Shown piece after piece: positions 23,219-39,293 of a stretch of 53,373 bases of DNA. The notes below the pieces were generated by a model. That model worked only from the letters and a program-made list of their open reading frames with translations. It was not told the origin of the DNA and did no database searches. The stretch is from NCBI GenBank assembly GCA_012964825.1, contig DTTI01000082.1, positions 1-53,373 on the forward strand. Reading direction: 5' to 3'. A program made the translations under genes and the position numbers. Position 1 is the first letter of the stretch, and every line of letters begins with the position of its first letter. Source of the DNA: Candidatus Neomarinimicrobiota bacterium (GTDB taxonomy: Bacteria > Fidelibacterota > Marinisomatia > Marinisomatales > S15-B10).

Positions 23219-25354
23219 CTACTGAAGACCTTTGGCGCGCCTCAATGCCCATTCTGCTGCGAGAAAAACTAGAAGTAAGATGAGGAATGGGGACCAGTGA
23301 GAAAGGTCAACGGTCTGAGAAAAAACTTCCTTTCGAGGTTTGATTGTCAAATGATCAACTAGGTTTAACCTCTCGGACCAGGGCAGGTAATTACCGCCTG
23401 TCAATTCTGATATACTCTCCAGGGATTCTTTGTCCAAATAAACATTTTTGAGCTCTAACAGTGCCTGTTCAACGAAGAATACACCGTGAGGTTCCTCTTC
23501 TGAGAACTGTTCATCAGCTATAAGAGTCCAATATTTATATCTACCGGGTTCAGCGGCAATAAAGGAACCTTTCCACATGTCACTCTCATTTTCTTTAGTT
23601 AGCGGAACAAGAGTCTCCTCCATGTCGGTACGCGAAATCCGCCACCATATGCCTCCCTGTAACTGTTTGGTGTTCATACTGGAAAATGCCCCTTCGATAG
23701 ATGCTTCCTCCCCTCTCTGAAAGGTCGATTTTGTCATTCGGAAATATCGGTCCTCTTCGCCACTCATTGCCACAAGCCATCTCCACAGGTTTACCCAATA
23801 CTCTTTCACTGCGGCATTGACTTCGGTGCCCTTTCCCCGGAAATAGAGGTGCCAAAGATCAGCTGACGTAAAAACATAACGCCTCACAGTCTGGATTTTT
23901 TGGTAAAAATCAGGCATTTTCCCTGCAATGATTAGAGGAATTGGTGACAGAGCTGACAGTTGTGCCGTAGTGACCATCCTCTCTTCTCCCGGCTCCACTA
24001 AGATTTTTGGTGAAAGTGGCGGAAATTGTGACCAATCCAACTCAAAAAACTTCATGGGATCGGAACTTTCGGAAATGGCCTCCACTGGGAACTGACCCCC
24101 CGTCCGGGTCTTTCCACCAAGAGGCTGTAGGCCGAGGATTGACAGATAGGCTAACAACTTATCCTCAGAAAGAGCTTCCCCAGCAATCAAGGCTACAGCG
24201 GTCTTGCCTTGGTCTAGTTTCCGGGCCAAATCCTCGGACCACCTGTTAGGTGTGGTTGAAGTAGGAAAATTGTCAAGTATAATCAGATCGTAGGATTGTC
24301 GCCAGAAATTGGCAATTGTCGGTACCCACCCACTCAATTGCTGAACGAAGTGTTCCACAGACAGTTTTGGCTCGCTCTCCAGGACGAGCTTGAGAAAACG
24401 AGTATTGAATGAGGGAGCACCTGTAATGAGTGCCACTCTGAAACGGTCTTTCAAGACGCTGAGTGAAAATGGATAACGGTTATTGTCAATATTGATCTCA
24501 TCTTTAACTGAGGAAGCTTGTACCACGTATTCTTCATTTCCGATCTGGTCCGCTTCAAACTGAAACCGTACAATCTGACTGCTCCCCTCACCACTCGGCG
24601 CAATAATTTGGGTACCGAGGAGAGCACCTCCTTTCTCCAGTGAAACGTGCACCCGCTGATCTATTTTCCCAAATGATTCAATGGTCACTTTGGCAGACAC
24701 CATCTCGCCACGAATCGACACGGTGGGGACTTCCACACTGTTGATCCGGATATCCACCATCCTGAGCGGTTCACCGATTCCTATAGTGTAAATCGGAACC
24801 TTCACATCGCCGGCACTGCTGACGGGATCAGCACCCACGGTGGTCTGACCGTCGCTTACAATAATGACACCGTTCAGTTCTTCGTCTCCGGCCAGTTCTG
24901 AAGACGAAGTGAGAACGGCCGAAAGGTCTGTGGATGATTCATTTATCCCCATCCCCAGCGGACTTCCGGAGAGAGGTGATACAGTTTCACCAAATGTGAA
25001 AGCCTCAATGCTAAAATCAGTGGGTTCATTGTAAGCCAACTCATCCACAACATTAAGAATCTCTTCGTAACCATTGAGCAAAGATTGTTTGGAAACAGAT
25101 TGATGATAGCCAGCGGAAACTGAGTTGTCAAAAAAAATCTTGATAAGCGGTTTCTTATTAAGCGAACCGGTCCGGACCCACTGAATGTTTGCCGCCAAAA
25201 ACACAATCAAAAGAAAAACGGATAACCGAAAGAAGGTGAGCAGCCTGTGAATTCTGTCGCTATTGCCTGTTTGCTGTCTGTAACTCAACCTGACAAACAA
25301 AAACGCAACAATTACCAGGATCAGAAGCAGCCAGGATGGAACAACGGGTGACAT
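23219..25354 (-). CDS. VWA-domain membrane protein with a glutamine-amidotransferase-like middle domain
   Basis: The 711-residue protein has two N-terminal membrane helices (about 6-24 and 38-60), a von Willebrand A domain (about 70-200) whose metal site appears intact: DNSVS (DXSXS), a following TDLS, and VSDGQTT. Residues about 310-400 (VALITGAPSFNTRFLKLVL, YDLIILDNFPTS) resemble a class-I glutamine-amidotransferase-like fold without its catalytic triad, and a final helix lies near residue 690. This layout occurs in Bacteroidetes and Planctomycetes membrane proteins of unknown function, sometimes next to BatA/BatB and MoxR genes, none of which is here. It lies 12 bases downstream of tsaD on the same strand and is followed by the 72-base gap to the polysaccharide operon. 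Function not assigned. Confidence 0.75.
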   Translation of the reverse strand: MSPVVPSWLLLILVIVAFLFVRLSYRQQTGNSDRIHRLLTFFRLSVFLLIVFLAANIQWVRTGSLNKKPLIKIFFDNSVSAGYHQSVSKQSLLNGYEEILNVVDELAYNEPTDFSIEAFTFGETVSPLSGSPLGMGINESSTDLSAVLTSSSELAGDEELNGVIIVSDGQTTVGADPVSSAGDVKVPIYTIGIGEPLRMVDIRINSVEVPTVSIRGEMVSAKVTIESFGKIDQRVHVSLEKGGALLGTQIIAPSGEGSSQIVRFQFEADQIGNEEYVVQASSVKDEINIDNNRYPFSLSVLKDRFRVALITGAPSFNTRFLKLVLESEPKLSVEHFVQQLSGWVPTIANFWRQSYDLIILDNFPTSTTPNRWSEDLARKLDQGKTAVALIAGEALSEDKLLAYLSILGLQPLGGKTRTGGQFPVEAISESSDPMKFFELDWSQFPPLSPKILVEPGEERMVTTAQLSALSPIPLIIAGKMPDFYQKIQTVRRYVFTSADLWHLYFRGKGTEVNAAVKEYWVNLWRWLVAMSGEEDRYFRMTKSTFQRGEEASIEGAFSSMNTKQLQGGIWWRISRTDMEETLVPLTKENESDMWKGSFIAAEPGRYKYWTLIADEQFSEEEPHGVFFVEQALLELKNVYLDKESLESISELTGGNYLPWSERLNLVDHLTIKPRKEVFSQTVDLSHWSPFLILLLVFLAAEWALRRAKGLQ

Positions 25355-33662: not shown

Positions 33663-33769
33663 TATTTTTCAGATCGAACAATCACTGTAATTATTCGCGG
33701 AATTTATCCTAAGCCTCAGACGGAATCAAGGCAAAAGCCTTTGCTCTCCGACGAGAAAAACAGTACATT

Positions 33770-33947
33770 CAGGCACTGTTTGACAAGTTGATTGCGGCAG
33801 GGAAACCCGTGCAAATCGGGTGCAGCCCCGCTACTGTGAGCGCTGAGGAAACTCCAATCCACACACGTGTGGAAGCCACTGTCCAATTAATCACGGACGG
33901 GAAGGTGGAGCCAGACGGTGAAGCGCAAGTCAGGATATCTGCCCAGT
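33770..33947 (+). promoter_or_regulatory. Cobalamin (adenosylcobalamin-type) riboswitch
   Basis: The plus-strand sequence between the HNH gene and the TonB-dependent receptor carries the conserved cobalamin-aptamer core: GGCAGGGAAACCCGTGCAAA, CGGGTGCAGCCCCGCTACTG (GCAGCCCCGC at 33822-33831), GAAGCCACTG, GACGGGAAGG, and the B12 box AGTCAGGATATCTGCC at 33928-33943. Order and spacing match the class. Binding of B12 should lower expression of the downstream receptor. The outer boundaries are approximate. The roughly 100 bases between 33663 and 33769 hold only the divergent promoters, in which no strong match was seen. Confidence 0.95.
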
Positions 33948-33982
33948 TGAAATTCTCAGTATCTATCCATTGATAGAAAGTA

Positions 33983-34002: not shown

Positions 34003-36087
34003 ATGATGACACCTCATTTTAAATATATTTTCCCCCTTATCATAGGTTTGGCTATAGCTCAAATTTTGACTGGCCAGACAACAGCGCTTCTTATCGGCTG
34101 GGTTACAGGCCCGGACGGGAGAGGCATACCATATGCAAACGTCTATCTCAAAGATGGTGAAGCAGGTACCACCTCCGACAGAGAGGGACGTTTCATTCTG
34201 CAAACCGACGGTGAAGAGAGTCGGAAACTCCTTATTAGTCACTCCGCATTTCAGCCGGTAGAGATATCCATTCAGGAGATGAACAGGCTAGGCGGCGAGA
34301 TCACCATGGAGATAAAAACATACCGTTTTGATCCTGTTGTTGTTTATGGCAACCTCTACAACCGGGAGAGTCTTCAGCTACCGGTGAGTCACCGTGCCGT
34401 GGAATTGCAAAAATATCCCGCCAGCGGAAACAGCATCGGGGAAAAGCTTGACCGCCTAGGGATTCAGGTCCGCGATTACGGCGGCCCGGCGGGACTGAAG
34501 ACTGTCTCTTCCCCCACAGGTTATTCAGAGCATATACTTGTGATGTTGGACGGCTTCCCGCTGAACTCACCCCAGAATGGCATCGTCGATTTCAGCACCC
34601 TGCCGGCAGAGTTCTTTTCCCACGCTGAGTTCTATCCTGGGCAAGCCTCCTCCCTTTACGGCTCCCACGCCGTAGGCGGAACACTCAATCTCCTGCCGGC
34701 AGCGGGGAGAAACTTTCTGAAATTCCGCGTTGGATCACTGGGTGAACAGGGAACCAGCGGCGAATCGACATTTCGGGTGGGAGAGATGTCCGCATCGCTG
34801 CACGGTAACCGCTTCGAAAGTGAAGGGAATTATCGTGAGAACAACCAGTTCGCCCAGGATGCGGTGGTTGTAAAACTGACTCTGCCGGCCGTGGGAGGCT
34901 GGAGTGTTAACAGCTATCTCCTGGCTTCCCTGACTGAAAGGGGTATTCCCGGGTCGGTTCAGTACCCTTCCCCTAGCGCCTACAAGAATAATGAAGATAT
35001 GCTTCTACTTGTGAGCGGGCGGACCGTTTCCAGATGGGGATACAGTGAAGTTTATGCCGGCTCTTTTCAGTCCGATGAACATTACACCAATCCGGACTGG
35101 GCCGTCGATTCGCAGCATAAGACAGCCAACAACCGGCTTCGGCTCATCCATCGGAGTCAGCCTGACCAAAATTTTACGAATACGGTGAGCCTGGAAGTTG
35201 CCCAGGTGGATGTTAAGAGCAACGATGCAGGTAAGCACGTCATGGCCACTGGTGCTGCCGGCCTCCTTTCTCAGATTCGTGTGGGGTCACAACTCACGAT
35301 CTCTCCCAGCGTCCGGCTGGACTGGGATGACCATTCAGACAACAAGATTGCCACTGGAAACCTGGCGTTATTGTGGTCTCCGGAGGAGAGTATGGTACAG
35401 TCGGTGGCGGTTAGTGGTGGAACCAGTTACCGGAACCCTACCTTTAACGACCTCTTCTGGGAAGATGCTATGGGATACTCCAAAGGGAATCCCGATCTGA
35501 TACCTGAGCGGGGTATGTCATCAAACATGAAAGTGGACTTAAGACCCATACTTGAAAATCAATTGCAATTCTCTGCTGGCGTTTCCTATTTCATTACGGA
35601 CAACCTCATCCAGTGGGCGCCGGATGATGCATGGGTCTATTCTCCACAAAATATTCTGAAATCTGAATCATCCGTTATGCGAATGTCAGCTCAGTTTCTC
35701 CCGAACTCCCTCCCCGTTGTCATACGCTTAGGTACTGAAAGTACGGAGAGCCAAATTCTCTCTGAAGGCAATGACAAGGGAAAATCCCTTCTTTATGTCC
35801 CTCCCACATCACTCTGGGCTGAAGTGGAACTGAAGCTAGGGGGATTGGCGGCCAACCTCAACGTCCGGAGCCTGGGTGAGCGCCGCTACAGCTACGGTGA
35901 AGGGGAATTACTAAGGCCCTACGAGCGGATGGACGGGGCTCTGAACTACAGCTTTTCGGTAAGTCAGTTCAACGTCAATTTGGAAGGAGGCGTCCGGAAT
36001 ATGCTGGATACCAAAGATCTCCAGTCCGTCTATGACTACCCCGAGCCCGGCAGAACCATTTTCATGGCTGTTGGGCTGGAACTTTAG
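34003..36087 (+). CDS. TonB-dependent outer-membrane receptor, BtuB-like (cobalamin uptake)
   Basis: From ATG at 34003 the product has 694 residues. A signal peptide (YIFPLIIGLAIAQILTGQ) is followed by a carboxypeptidase-regulatory-like beta-sandwich (about residues 28-105, GWVTGPDGRGIPYANVYL, TTSDREGRFILQT), a plug domain (about 115-235, with HILVMLDGFPLNSPQ and YPGQASSLYGSHAVGGTLNL), and a long barrel ending in GRTIFMAVGLEL. These receptors import scarce ligands using TonB energy. The cobalamin riboswitch just upstream makes vitamin B12 or a cobinamide the probable ligand. The open frame extends 11 codons upstream from a TTG, but the strong ribosome-binding site selects the ATG. It converges with the next gene with a four-base overlap. 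Confidence 0.92.
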   Translation: MMTPHFKYIFPLIIGLAIAQILTGQTTALLIGWVTGPDGRGIPYANVYLKDGEAGTTSDREGRFILQTDGEESRKLLISHSAFQPVEISIQEMNRLGGEITMEIKTYRFDPVVVYGNLYNRESLQLPVSHRAVELQKYPASGNSIGEKLDRLGIQVRDYGGPAGLKTVSSPTGYSEHILVMLDGFPLNSPQNGIVDFSTLPAEFFSHAEFYPGQASSLYGSHAVGGTLNLLPAAGRNFLKFRVGSLGEQGTSGESTFRVGEMSASLHGNRFESEGNYRENNQFAQDAVVVKLTLPAVGGWSVNSYLLASLTERGIPGSVQYPSPSAYKNNEDMLLLVSGRTVSRWGYSEVYAGSFQSDEHYTNPDWAVDSQHKTANNRLRLIHRSQPDQNFTNTVSLEVAQVDVKSNDAGKHVMATGAAGLLSQIRVGSQLTISPSVRLDWDDHSDNKIATGNLALLWSPEESMVQSVAVSGGTSYRNPTFNDLFWEDAMGYSKGNPDLIPERGMSSNMKVDLRPILENQLQFSAGVSYFITDNLIQWAPDDAWVYSPQNILKSESSVMRMSAQFLPNSLPVVIRLGTESTESQILSEGNDKGKSLLYVPPTSLWAEVELKLGGLAANLNVRSLGERRYSYGEGELLRPYERMDGALNYSFSVSQFNVNLEGGVRNMLDTKDLQSVYDYPEPGRTIFMAVGLEL

Positions 36088-37817
36088 TCGTTGAGATTCA
36101 ACCGGACGGAGAAGTAGGCCAGTCGCCCAGCGGGAGGGAAAAGGGGCGACGCCGAAAAAGTGGTGCCGGAAGTGCCCCCTGATGCACTCTCCATGATGTA
36201 CTGCACATTGGTGAGTACATAAGAAATTTCCACTGATGAGATAACAGCCTTAAACTCGGCGGTGATAATGCCCGCCGTATTGCGCGAAGGTGTGGTGGTA
36301 GCATTAGAATAGCCCAGATTAAGAATGGGGTCCCAGATAAAACTGGTTCTGCCGCTCCAGTAATTAAAAGAGAGATTGATTCGGGCATCCATCCTTTTCT
36401 GAAAAAGATGTTCCCGGAAATGTAAAGCCATTTCTCCCTGGTGATCGAAGAGATTTCCCCACCCGGACTCGCTCCCAAGGAGTGAAATACCTCTCAGTGA
36501 AAGAACCCAATCACGAAAGTAGTTGATACGGCTACCCCACATGGCTCCAGTAACTTTCGAAATCTGATCTCTGTTCAATCTGATCATCTTAATACCTGCA
36601 ATCTCCGTAGTACTCTCAAAGTAGTGATGCGGTGTAGCCTGGGAAGCGAACAGCGTCACTTCACCGGACGCTCTGTCCCACCTCATCTCGGCACCGATCC
36701 GCATCACCGTTCGGGTCGGCATGGTGGCACTGGAATCGGGACGGACAGTGGGAACCATGGTAGGCGTAAATGAATCAGGTACAAACAGAAATGGACGTCC
36801 CGTGAACTGAAACGGCAGCGGTTGAAGATTGTGCTTTAGATCCAGAAAGAGTTCGCTCTTCCCCCTTTTCAGTCGGAAGTGGCCTTGAAAATTGGGTGCC
36901 ATTTCCCCTGGAAAAACTGCGGAAACGCCCATGCCTGCTCTGCTCTCCAGGTCTGATGCCCGCATGTGTACGCCCCCCGAGACCCCTATAAAAGATAATG
37001 ACTGATTACCAAGAGTGTCGGAACTGACGACGCTCACTCGCCCTGTTCCGGAGAGAAAGAGTGAAAAACCTTTTCTCACAGGCATTTCACCAATGGCATG
37101 AAGACGGTTGCTCATGAGATCAGCCGACCATTGGGTGACGTCCTCCAGCAACCGTGTGATTCTGTACCGCTGAAGAAATGACGATCCCTCAACCTTGTAT
37201 TTGACATTACCTCTATTGCCGCTGTAACTGAGGCCGTTAGAGATGATTTTTTCGCTCCGCTCAGCCCCTTTCTCCCAAATGCCGTAAGAGCCGTACGGAA
37301 TGGCATCTGTGGTTAGATAAAATGCTGATGCTATCTGCCATCGGCCACCTTTGCTGTTCCCGGTGACATGATCGAAACGGTAGTTTTGCTGGACTGTCCC
37401 ACCAGGTCGAGCCAACGGATCCAGCAGGCCGTGGTAATCCTCAAAATTTTTCTTCAGGGCACGAAAGCGTGTAAACCTCCGTTCAGGCGATTTTGAGAGT
37501 ATGTCTAAGCTCAACTCATCCAGGCTGTAGTCCCCGGTCCGATACCACAGTGAGGTATTCAGGCCAAGCTCATTCTCATCCGAATCAATACTGGAAAGAA
37601 ATGGGAAACGGTACCTTGCTGGCCAGTGGGCAAAGTTGCCGTCAAAATGAAGGGGCGACACCACCCTTTCCACACCCCACCCAGAAAAACCGTACCTGTG
37701 AACAAGACCCCACTGACCGCTCCAGTCAAAGGGAACAACCCCAGCGGAAAAGCCGTACGCACGCAGAAATGAAACCGCCAACACGAGCGCCGGAAGCAAC
37801 TGATTCCGTCTGTTCAC
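36084..37817 (-). CDS. Unassigned outer-membrane beta-barrel protein
   Basis: The 577-residue protein has an N-terminal signal peptide (LLPALVLAVSFLRAYGFSAG) and then many short alternating hydrophobic/polar strands rich in Tyr, Trp and Gly, ending with RLAYFSVRLNLND, all consistent with a large outer-membrane barrel of 20 or more strands. No plug domain or known family block was recognised. Its start overlaps the ECF S-component stop by four bases, so both are on one transcript, and it converges with the B12-regulated receptor. A transport role alongside those two is an inference; it could also be a porin or an assembly protein. Confidence 0.65.
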   Translation of the reverse strand: MNRRNQLLPALVLAVSFLRAYGFSAGVVPFDWSGQWGLVHRYGFSGWGVERVVSPLHFDGNFAHWPARYRFPFLSSIDSDENELGLNTSLWYRTGDYSLDELSLDILSKSPERRFTRFRALKKNFEDYHGLLDPLARPGGTVQQNYRFDHVTGNSKGGRWQIASAFYLTTDAIPYGSYGIWEKGAERSEKIISNGLSYSGNRGNVKYKVEGSSFLQRYRITRLLEDVTQWSADLMSNRLHAIGEMPVRKGFSLFLSGTGRVSVVSSDTLGNQSLSFIGVSGGVHMRASDLESRAGMGVSAVFPGEMAPNFQGHFRLKRGKSELFLDLKHNLQPLPFQFTGRPFLFVPDSFTPTMVPTVRPDSSATMPTRTVMRIGAEMRWDRASGEVTLFASQATPHHYFESTTEIAGIKMIRLNRDQISKVTGAMWGSRINYFRDWVLSLRGISLLGSESGWGNLFDHQGEMALHFREHLFQKRMDARINLSFNYWSGRTSFIWDPILNLGYSNATTTPSRNTAGIITAEFKAVISSVEISYVLTNVQYIMESASGGTSGTTFSASPLFPPAGRLAYFSVRLNLND

Positions 37818-38347
37818 GGCTTGAGTCTGGAAAAAACTTTCGGCAAGGCGGTGGCGAAGATGACACCGTTCGCTACCTGATGGAGGAAAGTAAAGCCGAT
37901 ACCGGTGACAAACAGGGCAGCTGTCTGTGTGACGGGATAGCCGGCGGCCAGAGGATAGCTGAGGGTCGTCAGAGCATCAAATATAAAAGTCAATACAACA
38001 CCGGCAGCGCCGAAAAACGTTCTCCTGCGCCACGTCCAGTCAGATGATCTGGCCAAGCCTCTGAATCTCCCACCCACGGCACCCACAAGTCCCATGCCGC
38101 ACATCTGTGCCAGCAACATTGGAAGAAAAACGACTCCTGACCCAAGTGGATTGGCGGCACTGAAAATAAATTCGGCAACGATTCCCACGGTGAGTCCCCA
38201 TCCTGTTCCGACGTAGACTCCAGAAGTAAATACCACAGCAGTAATCAGTTCAATGTTGGGAACCATGAGCAGGGCGAATCCTGAACCGACGGCCAGCGCC
38301 ACAAACATGGCGCCGCGGCTGAGATTACTCAGCTTACGGTCTGTCAC
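37814..38347 (-). CDS. ECF transporter S component (possible vitamin B12 or other vitamin specificity)
   Basis: The small membrane protein has about six helices: MFVALAVGSGFALLM, IELITAVVFTSGVYVGTGWGL, VVFLPMLLAQMCGMGLVGAVGG and others, matching the S-component pattern in which a substrate-binding membrane subunit pairs with the shared EcfA-EcfA'-EcfT energy module. The energy module is not in the window. GTG at 38345-38347 gives 177 residues with a 14-base overlap with the YhaM-like gene; the frame is open another 22 codons, which would overlap more. The nearby B12-regulated receptor makes cobalamin (CbrT-like) a candidate substrate, but other vitamins or metals are equally possible from sequence alone. 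Confidence 0.72.
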   Translation of the reverse strand: MTDRKLSNLSRGAMFVALAVGSGFALLMVPNIELITAVVFTSGVYVGTGWGLTVGIVAEFIFSAANPLGSGVVFLPMLLAQMCGMGLVGAVGGRFRGLARSSDWTWRRRTFFGAAGVVLTFIFDALTTLSYPLAAGYPVTQTAALFVTGIGFTFLHQVANGVIFATALPKVFSRLKP

Positions 38348-39293
38348 CCTTGTAGAGCGCTGCTCCGAAGTAATTCCTTCTGCTGGTCCAGTCACCGTCT
38401 TCACTGTCTTCATCCAAAATTCTGTTAAATAAGCTAACCTTTGTATCTAGGTTGTCCAGAGCTTGAAGCAAAAGCGCTTCTTTTGTCCGGGCACGGTTTC
38501 TATACCGAGAATCGAAGCCTCCCTCATGGCACATAATGAGATGCTCCAGTTCCAGTAATAGATCATCAGGAAAGTTTTTGATCTCCGCCGCCTCTTCCCT
38601 GATCATATCCCTACCAAGAACGGAATGACCGATGAAATTACCCTCATCAGAATATTCCGGCATGAATGCATCAGTGAGCTCCCGAACCTTACCAATGCCG
38701 TGAAGGAGGATTCCAGCAAGAAGCATATCAATATTAGCACTGTAATGCTTTGCCTGAGTGACACCAAGCTTTGCCATGGAGAGCACATGTTCCAGGTAGC
38801 CGGAACGGTAGGTGTAGTGCATGGATATGGACGCCGGCATGAACATGAGTCTGTCCTTGTGTTTCCGGTAAAGCTGGGACACCAGTTTTTTAAGGAACTG
38901 ATTCTCCATTTTTTGGATGATGGCTCCCAGGGATGTCCACATCCGCACCGGATCGTGGGGTGATACGGGTACCAGGGCCTCCGGTTTGAAGCCGTACCTG
39001 GCATATTTTGCCTCCGTTGCCTTATTGATACGCCCCACAATGATCTGGTTGCGGTCCTGGAAGGTGTCTATCCTGCCTCGGACAGCGACGGCGTCGCCCT
39101 GCTCAAATTTCTCATTAAACTCCTGAACCTGGTCCCAAACTTTGGCACCAATCTCACCAGTTGCATCCGTTAGTGTAAGGTCAAGATAGAATTCCCTGGA
39201 CCGAGTTTTCCTCAGGTGCTTCTCTTTACATAGGTAAAAACCCTGGATGTCGGCGTCTACTTTTAACTTGGAGATGGGTACGAGCTTTTTCAC
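38334..39293 (-). CDS. YhaM-like OB-fold/HD-domain protein with altered HD motif
   Basis: The 319-residue protein has an N-terminal OB-fold nucleic-acid-binding domain (about residues 5-100, GFYLCKEKHLRKTRSREFYLDLTLTD) and an HD-type domain (about 150-300). The layout matches YhaM/CbfI 3'-5' exoribonucleases. The metal-binding His169 in YRSGYLEHVLSM is present, but the family HD pair reads His198-Gly199 in AGILLHGIGK; the codon at 38697-38699 is GGC where the normal Asp would be GAC. The rest (GHSVLGRDMI, LEHLIMCHEGG) is intact. It may be catalytically dead, use another ligand, or carry a sequence error. It heads the minus-strand group with the S component and barrel genes. Confidence 0.8.
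   Translation of the reverse strand: MKKLVPISKLKVDADIQGFYLCKEKHLRKTRSREFYLDLTLTDATGEIGAKVWDQVQEFNEKFEQGDAVAVRGRIDTFQDRNQIIVGRINKATEAKYARYGFKPEALVPVSPHDPVRMWTSLGAIIQKMENQFLKKLVSQLYRKHKDRLMFMPASISMHYTYRSGYLEHVLSMAKLGVTQAKHYSANIDMLLAGILLHGIGKVRELTDAFMPEYSDEGNFIGHSVLGRDMIREEAAEIKNFPDDLLLELEHLIMCHEGGFDSRYRNRARTKEALLLQALDNLDTKVSLFNRILDEDSEDGDWTSRRNYFGAALYKGDRP

Follow-up and report, generated by a model that had tools for sequence, protein, structure and literature searches.

A probable vitamin B12 import locus of Neomarinimicrobiota with a CbrT-like S component and a barrel that appears to be a plug-reduced TonB-dependent transporter relative

The subject of this analysis is a 53,373-nucleotide stretch of DNA from a Candidatus Neomarinimicrobiota bacterium (contig DTTI01000082.1 of assembly GCA_012964825.1; "the window" means this whole stretch), which forms contig C82 of its genome; the latter comprises 84 contigs and 2.21 Mb and is 97.6% complete. 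A locus in the window probably encodes the outer-membrane and the substrate-specific parts of a vitamin B12 (cobalamin) import route, namely a BtuB-like receptor behind a cobalamin riboswitch, a second outer-membrane barrel, and a substrate-specific (S) component of the energy-coupling factor (ECF) type that resembles CbrT. The genome encodes EcfT and a fused EcfA elsewhere and has no match to FecCD, the family of BtuC. The features of the locus are as follows.

33754-33960, plus strand: cobalamin riboswitch RF00174 (88.1 bits, gathering score 31.5), preceding the receptor gene
34003-36087, plus strand: BtuB-like TonB-dependent receptor; it has a carboxypeptidase-regulatory-like extension at the N-terminus, and a plug
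36084-37817, minus strand: 577-residue outer-membrane barrel, apparently a plug-reduced relative of TonB-dependent transporters, of no Pfam family
37566-37751, minus strand: residues 23-84 of the barrel, a short conserved N-terminal segment in the place of the usual plug (letters PFDWSGQ)
37814-38347, minus strand: ECF-type S component, CbrT-like, with a 4-base overlap (GTGA) with the barrel start
38334-39293, minus strand: YhaM-like OB/HD protein (NCBIfam YhaM 159.2 bits, cut-off 460), first gene of an overlapping YhaM-S-barrel unit

The riboswitch was the sole match in an Rfam scan of the window, and a search of the bacterium's own genome found no cobalamin riboswitch besides it. AAAGGAG sits just 5' of the receptor start (ATG 34003). 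The receptor combines a plug (PF07715, 38.8 bits, cut-off 23.9) with a TonB-dependent barrel directly downstream of the cobalamin riboswitch; it matches the vitamin B12 receptor model TIGR01779 over positions 65-610 of 614 with 69.4 bits, the cut-off of that model (599.7) lying far above. The receptor and barrel genes converge, and their stops overlap by 4 bases; this arrangement, described in an earlier note made from the sequence alone, is confirmed by the coordinates and the RF00174 match. The note had also counted two genes in the minus-strand unit. Barrel and S component do adjoin, but the frame of the latter is open to ATG 38413 and the family alignment favours a start at GTG 38347, with which the S gene shares 14 bases with the YhaM-like gene; the unit therefore comprises at least three genes. 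Likewise, the note was right that the locus has a single riboswitch, that of the receptor, but the link to the other two genes is no longer only positional.

FecCD (PF01032) had no match in the genome (BtuF and BtuD were not sought separately), and the same search was positive in 13 of 14 known genomes used as a control. A btuCDF cluster beside another riboswitch, which would have spoken against the proposed role of the S component, was thus not encountered: neither FecCD nor a second cobalamin riboswitch turned up. For comparison we used 150 genomes (this one and 149 relatives), 54 of them near-complete, i.e. with a completeness of 90% or more and a contamination of 5% or less. A strong FecCD match is present in ten of the 150, three of which also have S, and in none of the 54, so BtuCDF plays little part either way. 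Weak partial matches (up to 34.5 bits, six of them over the family cut-off) in nine more genomes were not counted as BtuC; a match of this kind (32.7 bits, over the cut-off) occurs in the near-complete genome G132.

The closest named record of the S component, the window's own possibly aside, is that of Candidatus Neomarinimicrobiota D37C9 (SCKS01000026.1; 93% identical). Among 70 S loci in named genomes, 62 are titled Marinimicrobia or Neomarinimicrobiota, and the other eight belong to an unnamed bacterium, the FCB group, Bacteroidota, KSB1 or WOR-3. A 42-member profile of the family, searched against PDB sequences, matched CbrT (6FNP; E 4.7e-6, positions 3-164 of 175), as did a 63-member profile (E 2.4e-6), for which the window sequence was combined with all candidates but L215 and L241 (62 of 64). 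No other S component was matched by these profiles at E <= 10, the only further PDB match being plasminogen activator inhibitor 1 (E 0.45 and 0.29). The entry 6FNP is ECF-CbrT, for which B12 transport has been shown experimentally (PMC5997447). By sequence profile, placement among the vitamin S components thus favours the inference of the earlier note. The Pfam model ECF_trnsprt (E <= 0.1) matches 34 of the 42 members. The predicted structure (predicted local distance difference test score, pLDDT, 92.1) has the S-component fold, and 20 VIA-align rows with Z >= 10.4 are S components by their titles: FolT is nearest (Z 15.8), followed by ThiT, PanT, BioY and RibU chains, and BtuM is at 10.4. With FolT, ThiT and PanT at the top and CbrT not among the matches listed, the fold does not tell the substrate. 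As no column of the family (42 and 63 sequences) holds an invariant or nearly invariant cysteine, and as an ECF module is present, membership in BtuM was rejected. The protein is likely to be the substrate-specific part of a B12 importer. Taken together, the missing FecCD match, the single riboswitch, the kinship to CbrT and the ECF module support the proposal that S stands in for BtuCDF. Alignments of the S model extend to the membrane part of apolipoprotein N-acyltransferase (Lnt; Z 7.1 to 9.0, 14 entries), which may reflect a common helical arrangement only.

The genome search for the remaining ECF subunits, suggested in the earlier note, found EcfT and a fused two-domain EcfA, both far from S. 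EcfT lies on contig C58 (Pfam CbiQ, 41.1 bits, cut-off 25) and is flanked, as judged by eye, by an lnt-like frame and truA; no EcfA gene was seen when looked for beside it. The fused EcfAA (438 residues, two ATP-binding cassette (ABC) domains) is encoded on contig C65, so that the three genes sit on three separate contigs. Within this protein, TIGR04520 matches the first half and TIGR04521 the second, and the four best PDB matches are EcfA1 chains. Other ATPase candidates (L003-L014) resemble other ABC systems by eye and were rejected as EcfA, L014 being left unsettled.

Despite this dispersal, S and the module go together. All 54 near-complete genomes agree, 38 having S with EcfT or EcfAA and 16 having neither. 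Within one genus, G097 possesses S, EcfT and EcfAA, and G028 and G073 lack all three. On a marker tree that covers 66 of the 150 genomes (those with a marker on a fetched stretch, G004 not among them; the tree was searched quickly from gappy rows, and its G148 branch is very long), the module follows S in 6.6 of seven independent pairs on average and is never opposite (median p 0.016). EcfT was matched in 62 genomes, 18 of which have it only below the Pfam cut-off. S components dock to EcfT by an AxxxA motif; in a crude scan of the N-terminal stretch, 45 of 63 S members have the strict motif near helix 1, compared with none of 12 members of another family, DUF6580, that is described next. These comparisons make it likely that S is energised by the scattered EcfT and EcfAA.

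In the sister families f16 and f17, what lies between YhaM and the barrel is not S but a membrane protein of 171-179 residues that belongs to DUF6580 (PF20221). Six loci have DUF6580 immediately after YhaM (L162, L163, L165, L166, L169 and L171 of genomes G131, G140, G130, G136, G139 and G149, respectively), and the complete order YhaM-DUF6580-barrel is found in L140 (G139), L258 (G140), L259 (G136), L260 (G134), L262 (G130) and L263 (G131). In L141 (G141), DUF6580 and the barrel are adjacent and YhaM is off the stretch; in L273 (G148) and L275 (G145), YhaM and DUF6580 are followed by frames of 531 and 569 residues, to which a widened barrel profile gave weak scores of 22.9 and 13.9 bits. The near-complete genomes have DUF6580 only (13), S only (38) or neither (3), and never both; in other words, DUF6580 is present in 13 of the 16 S-less and in 0 of the 38 S-bearing ones. 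Over all 150 genomes, one (G120) has both, 83 have S only, 41 DUF6580 only and 25 neither. (G013 was dropped from the DUF6580 list, its sole match, of 26.1 bits and under the cut-off, lying on its own S gene.) All but one of the 42 DUF6580 genomes lack EcfT and EcfAA. The exception is again G120, with two DUF6580 matches (123.4 bits each, contigs C57 and C77) and 5% contamination, which is possibly a mixed bin. The S and DUF6580 states require at least eight changes on the marker tree; among seven independent pairs, 5.4 on average are opposite and none alike, with a median p of 0.0625, which is not below 0.05.

The simplest reading of this pattern is that the two proteins do one job, S together with an ECF motor and DUF6580 in its absence. 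We claim replacement here and not kinship, because hhalign did not connect the two families significantly and the DUF6580 Pfam model cross-hits S members (2 of 42) weakly and in one direction only. Neither the DUF6580 profile (from an alignment of 12 of 14 sequences, two duplicate loci being left out) nor one DUF6580 sequence matched any PDB sequence. In L261 (6676-9440; G143), from an f18 genome without an S match, DUF6580 adjoins a BtuB-like receptor gene. Three near-complete genomes, G027 (L081), G048 (L125/L126) and G047, have neither S nor DUF6580 nor a strong FecCD match.

The barrel is very probably a relative of TonB-dependent transporters with a plug shortened to about 60 residues, as both profile comparison and the predicted structure suggest. 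None of 50 members of the family (the window and 49 frames passing limits on length, score and absence of X) matched Pfam at E 0.01, and the family profile found nothing credible among PDB sequences. The structural model (pLDDT 84.9) is a large barrel with some 60 residues between a likely signal peptide and the first long strand. Foldseek matched it to FepA (E 1.2e-16) and BtuB (5.6e-16). In VIA-align, BtuB1 of B. theta (Z 25.8; root-mean-square deviation 3.0, 500 aligned) ties with FhuA (25.3) and E. coli BtuB (25.2), and all 50 rows listed are TonB-dependent transporters by their titles (Z 22.7 to 25.8). DSSP assigns 24 strands of eight or more residues, some of them probably broken strands; the fold class is a 22-strand barrel. 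Furthermore, hhalign aligns the barrel family with the neighbouring BtuB family (the window and 25 of 41 sequences) with a probability of 97% (E 9.4e-11, 418 columns). As BtuB was the sole family compared by profile, it is not established as the nearest kin.

The usual plug of a TonB-dependent transporter has about 130 residues. In the barrel, there is no Pfam plug match, the hhalign alignment pairs barrel with barrel only and leaves the BtuB plug without a partner, and the N-terminus before the strands is about 60 residues long; inspection by eye of the mature N-termini of some members revealed no TonB-box-like stretch. The N-terminal segment, whose PFDWSGQ letters are shared by the close family, shows higher conservation than the remainder of the protein (mean frequency of the commonest residue 0.52 vs 0.33), and is therefore likely to be functional. 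The suggestion that the barrel is an auxiliary outer-membrane factor for B12 is thus supported and sharpened to a plug-reduced member of this transporter group.

Its company was studied in 62 fetched loci (the window included), which were picked around riboswitches and S genes and are not a random sample. S lies directly upstream of the barrel in 44 of them, and in 47 the barrel converges within 1 kb on a BtuB gene (18), on a gene for a BtuG-like DUF5074 beta-propeller lipoprotein (15) or on both (14), which we take to be more than chance. From the side of S, a recognised barrel is directly downstream in 56 of the 70 S loci of named genomes. Four of the other 14 run into a contig edge, in another the barrel lies 413 bases further on (the limit was 400), seven have a frame of 539-716 residues that scores at least 37.5 bits for the barrel family with each of three unfiltered profiles, and the last two are the KSB1 and WOR-3 loci.

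At the riboswitch/BtuG locus of 18 fetched genomes BtuB is missing, and the barrel is recognised in 16 of these (G027, G028, G048, G054, G060, G063, G073, G076, G087, G093, G096, G097, G110, G124, G136 and G140; G076 and G110 have it together with S on a different contig). A genome-wide search of 14 of the 18 (all except G136, G140, G147 and G148) found no BtuB ortholog, the best scores being 53 to 170 bits vs 650-792 in seven comparison genomes. The BtuB states need seven changes on the tree (65 genomes, G147 and G148 left out). Conversely, G005 and G008, both incomplete bins (64 and 76%), have BtuB at the locus and no barrel. Barrel and BtuB thus look partly interchangeable. The two f16 genomes G147 and G148 (L142, L143, L273), which have a riboswitch-BtuG locus without BtuB and no clearly recognised barrel, speak against interchangeability as a rule; G147 was searched with a single sequence alone, and in G148, which has a strong FecCD match, the barrel slot holds just the 531-residue frame with its weak score.

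We somewhat favour the view that the barrel works in B12 passage. The most serious competitor, which we consider possible but doubtful, would make it a mere passenger of the operon, a porin or a structural outer-membrane protein with a different function. G147 and G148 would fit such a protein, as would the generally conserved gene order and the loci in which the barrel stays with S away from BtuB and BtuG: in family f18, S and barrel are together and BtuB is elsewhere (L103/L104, L119-L124, L138/L139), and 12 S-barrel loci have neither BtuB nor BtuG on the fetched stretch. A porin accounts poorly for the TonB-dependent-transporter fold, for the hhalign match to the BtuB family, for the presence of the barrel in most fetched genomes whose riboswitch/BtuG locus lacks BtuB, and for its position facing BtuB and/or BtuG in three quarters of the loci. 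A bolder extension of B12 passage through the barrel is tentative. Here, the barrel would be the founder of plug-reduced BtuB paralogs that replace BtuB when paired with BtuG; in several lineages the riboswitch would drive BtuG alone, BtuB being gone, and BtuG, the barrel and an S-type protein at the inner membrane (CbrT-like with the ECF module, or DUF6580 without it) would constitute the whole route, possibly with an outer-membrane step that works without TonB.

For the window, the route would run as follows. Falling cobalamin would lift the riboswitch, and the BtuB-like receptor would be made and would carry B12 through the outer membrane. S would bind B12 at the inner membrane and work with the separately encoded EcfT and the fused EcfA-EcfA' ATPase, the ECF transporter standing in for the missing BtuCDF. 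The barrel probably would serve passage or hand-over of B12 at the outer membrane, with BtuB or, in relatives, with BtuG. The imported compound may differ from cobalamin itself: CbrT moves cobinamide as well as cobalamin (PMC5997447), and the evidence here would fit both. Import of a precursor or relative (cobinamide, other cobamides) is nevertheless unlikely in our view, given that the riboswitch controlling the receptor is of the cobalamin class.

Less probable still is that S works alone and leaves EcfT and EcfAA to other S components. That an S-type protein can transport by itself is documented for BtuM and solitary BioY (PMC6072759), and the ECF genes do not adjoin S. A solitary protein would, however, hardly account for the complete coincidence of S and module in the near-complete genomes and in the independent tree pairs, or for the AxxxA motif that DUF6580 lacks; moreover, according to PMC6072759, BtuM homologues are, but for one exception, confined to organisms that lack an ECF module.

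Several observations weigh against B12 import through S and the ECF module. The single S sequence matches 6FNP first but weakly (E 0.037), weak matches to the riboflavin family PF07155 (best 9.9e-5) and to the folate family TIGR04518 (best 1.2e-5) occur in 15 of 42 members each, and CbrT is missing from the structural matches listed, where FolT, ThiT and PanT lead. EcfT has no family match in NCBIfam at E <= 1, and EcfAA scores under the equivalog cut-offs. S and module disagree in 12 of the 150 genomes, incomplete ones included (both 79, S only 5, module only 7, neither 59), as expected of incomplete bins, which is not proven; S was the only S family sought, and other S components might share the module. 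The hhalign probability between S and DUF6580 is 0.16%. The Rfam scan of the window found neither a riboswitch nor another B12 signal on the YhaM-S-barrel unit, and among the genes for B12 the searches covered FecCD, not B12-dependent enzymes, BtuF/BtuD or B12 synthesis genes. Finally, adjacency alone weighs little, since much of the order shares the synteny of this neighbourhood (scpA, trpS, HNH, YhaM).

Some of these points would suit an S component for another vitamin, e.g. folate, that conserved gene order has placed here (the scpA-trpS-HNH and YhaM positions are kept in many fetched loci, FolT is the nearest fold, and the weak family matches include folate and riboflavin), but this is very improbable in view of CbrT being the sole S component matched among PDB sequences, of DUF6580 taking the S slot in sister families and excluding S phyletically, of a genome with B12 riboswitch and receptor but no FecCD, and of a KSB1 S gene that overlaps a TonB-receptor-like gene in the same direction.

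In that KSB1 genome (the S and receptor-like pair at L236:9971-12357), S is followed with a 4-base overlap by the 609-residue TonB-receptor-like gene, which scores 84.7 bits against the BtuB profile. In the WOR-3 genome, S has no TonB-receptor-like neighbour. Ten other S loci, both of these included, gave no Rfam match at the gathering score on the fetched stretch. The YhaM-like OB/HD protein is the upstream partner of S in most fetched S loci and of DUF6580 in f16/f17, which may reflect either function or a frozen order of genes. In the window's own family (f1), no BtuG adjoins BtuB in the fetched loci, though this is common elsewhere in the order. Elsewhere in the window, positions 23219-25354 hold a minus-strand frame of 711 residues for which Pfam gave no match at E 1e-5.

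How B12 passes the inner membrane in diderms without BtuCDF is named as a gap in PMC6072759, which also states that many B12-auxotrophic Gram-negatives have BtuB and lack BtuCDF; B12-uptaking organisms without BtuFCD are likewise noted in PMC2667541, and identification of B12 transport is presented as an open problem for human gut genomes in PMC6593275. For a whole phylum, the present case offers a concrete answer that can be tested: an ECF transporter whose genes are dispersed. In addition, it predicts a function for DUF6580, for which our literature search found no describing paper, and introduces an outer-membrane family outside all Pfam models. Should the barrel prove able to replace BtuB, it would have to be reconsidered whether a plugged, TonB-driven receptor is generally required. 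A literature search that excluded subscription journals and preprints, and that covered Marinimicrobia, DUF6580 and plug-lacking TonB-dependent proteins, found no description of this arrangement among the papers listed.

Among the known systems, the proposed transporter is closest to ECF-CbrT of Lactobacillus delbrueckii (6FNP), with which it shares the S fold, an EcfT with two EcfA domains, and occurrence in organisms without BtuCDF; in the HMMER alignment, CbrT and the S family of the window have in common a PN pair near the first loop and a His and an Asn of the last helices. Unlike ECF-CbrT, the system here belongs to a diderm phylum and lies beside an outer-membrane receptor, its EcfA1 and EcfA2 are fused, its genes are dispersed, and the sequence match is weak. 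BtuM of Thiobacillus denitrificans is similar in its S fold, its B12 receptor context and the absence of BtuCDF, but its feature is an invariant cysteine ligating cobalt (PMC6072759), which the S family lacks, and the ECF module is present here. DUF6580 resembles S in occupying the same YhaM-barrel slot in sister families and in replacing it phyletically; it differs in lacking EcfT/EcfAA (41 of 42 genomes) and in having no significant hhalign connection to the S family. A different solution is described for Caldithrix, which has a B12 riboswitch, BtuB and BtuCDF (PMC5317091).

At the outer membrane, the riboswitch-controlled receptor recalls BtuB-BtuG of Bacteroides, in which BtuG is a seven-bladed propeller complexed with BtuB (PMC10404256), and relatives of the window add a BtuG-like DUF5074 propeller lipoprotein after the receptor, the naming as BtuG being based on fold type and context and not on direct comparison. 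Unlike in Bacteroides, the window locus has no BtuG and possesses a second, apparently plug-reduced barrel, and several relatives keep BtuG and the barrel without BtuB. The barrel itself has the fold of TonB-dependent transporters such as BtuB, FhuA, PirA and OprC, but differs from them in having, instead of a recognisable plug family, the short N-terminal segment.

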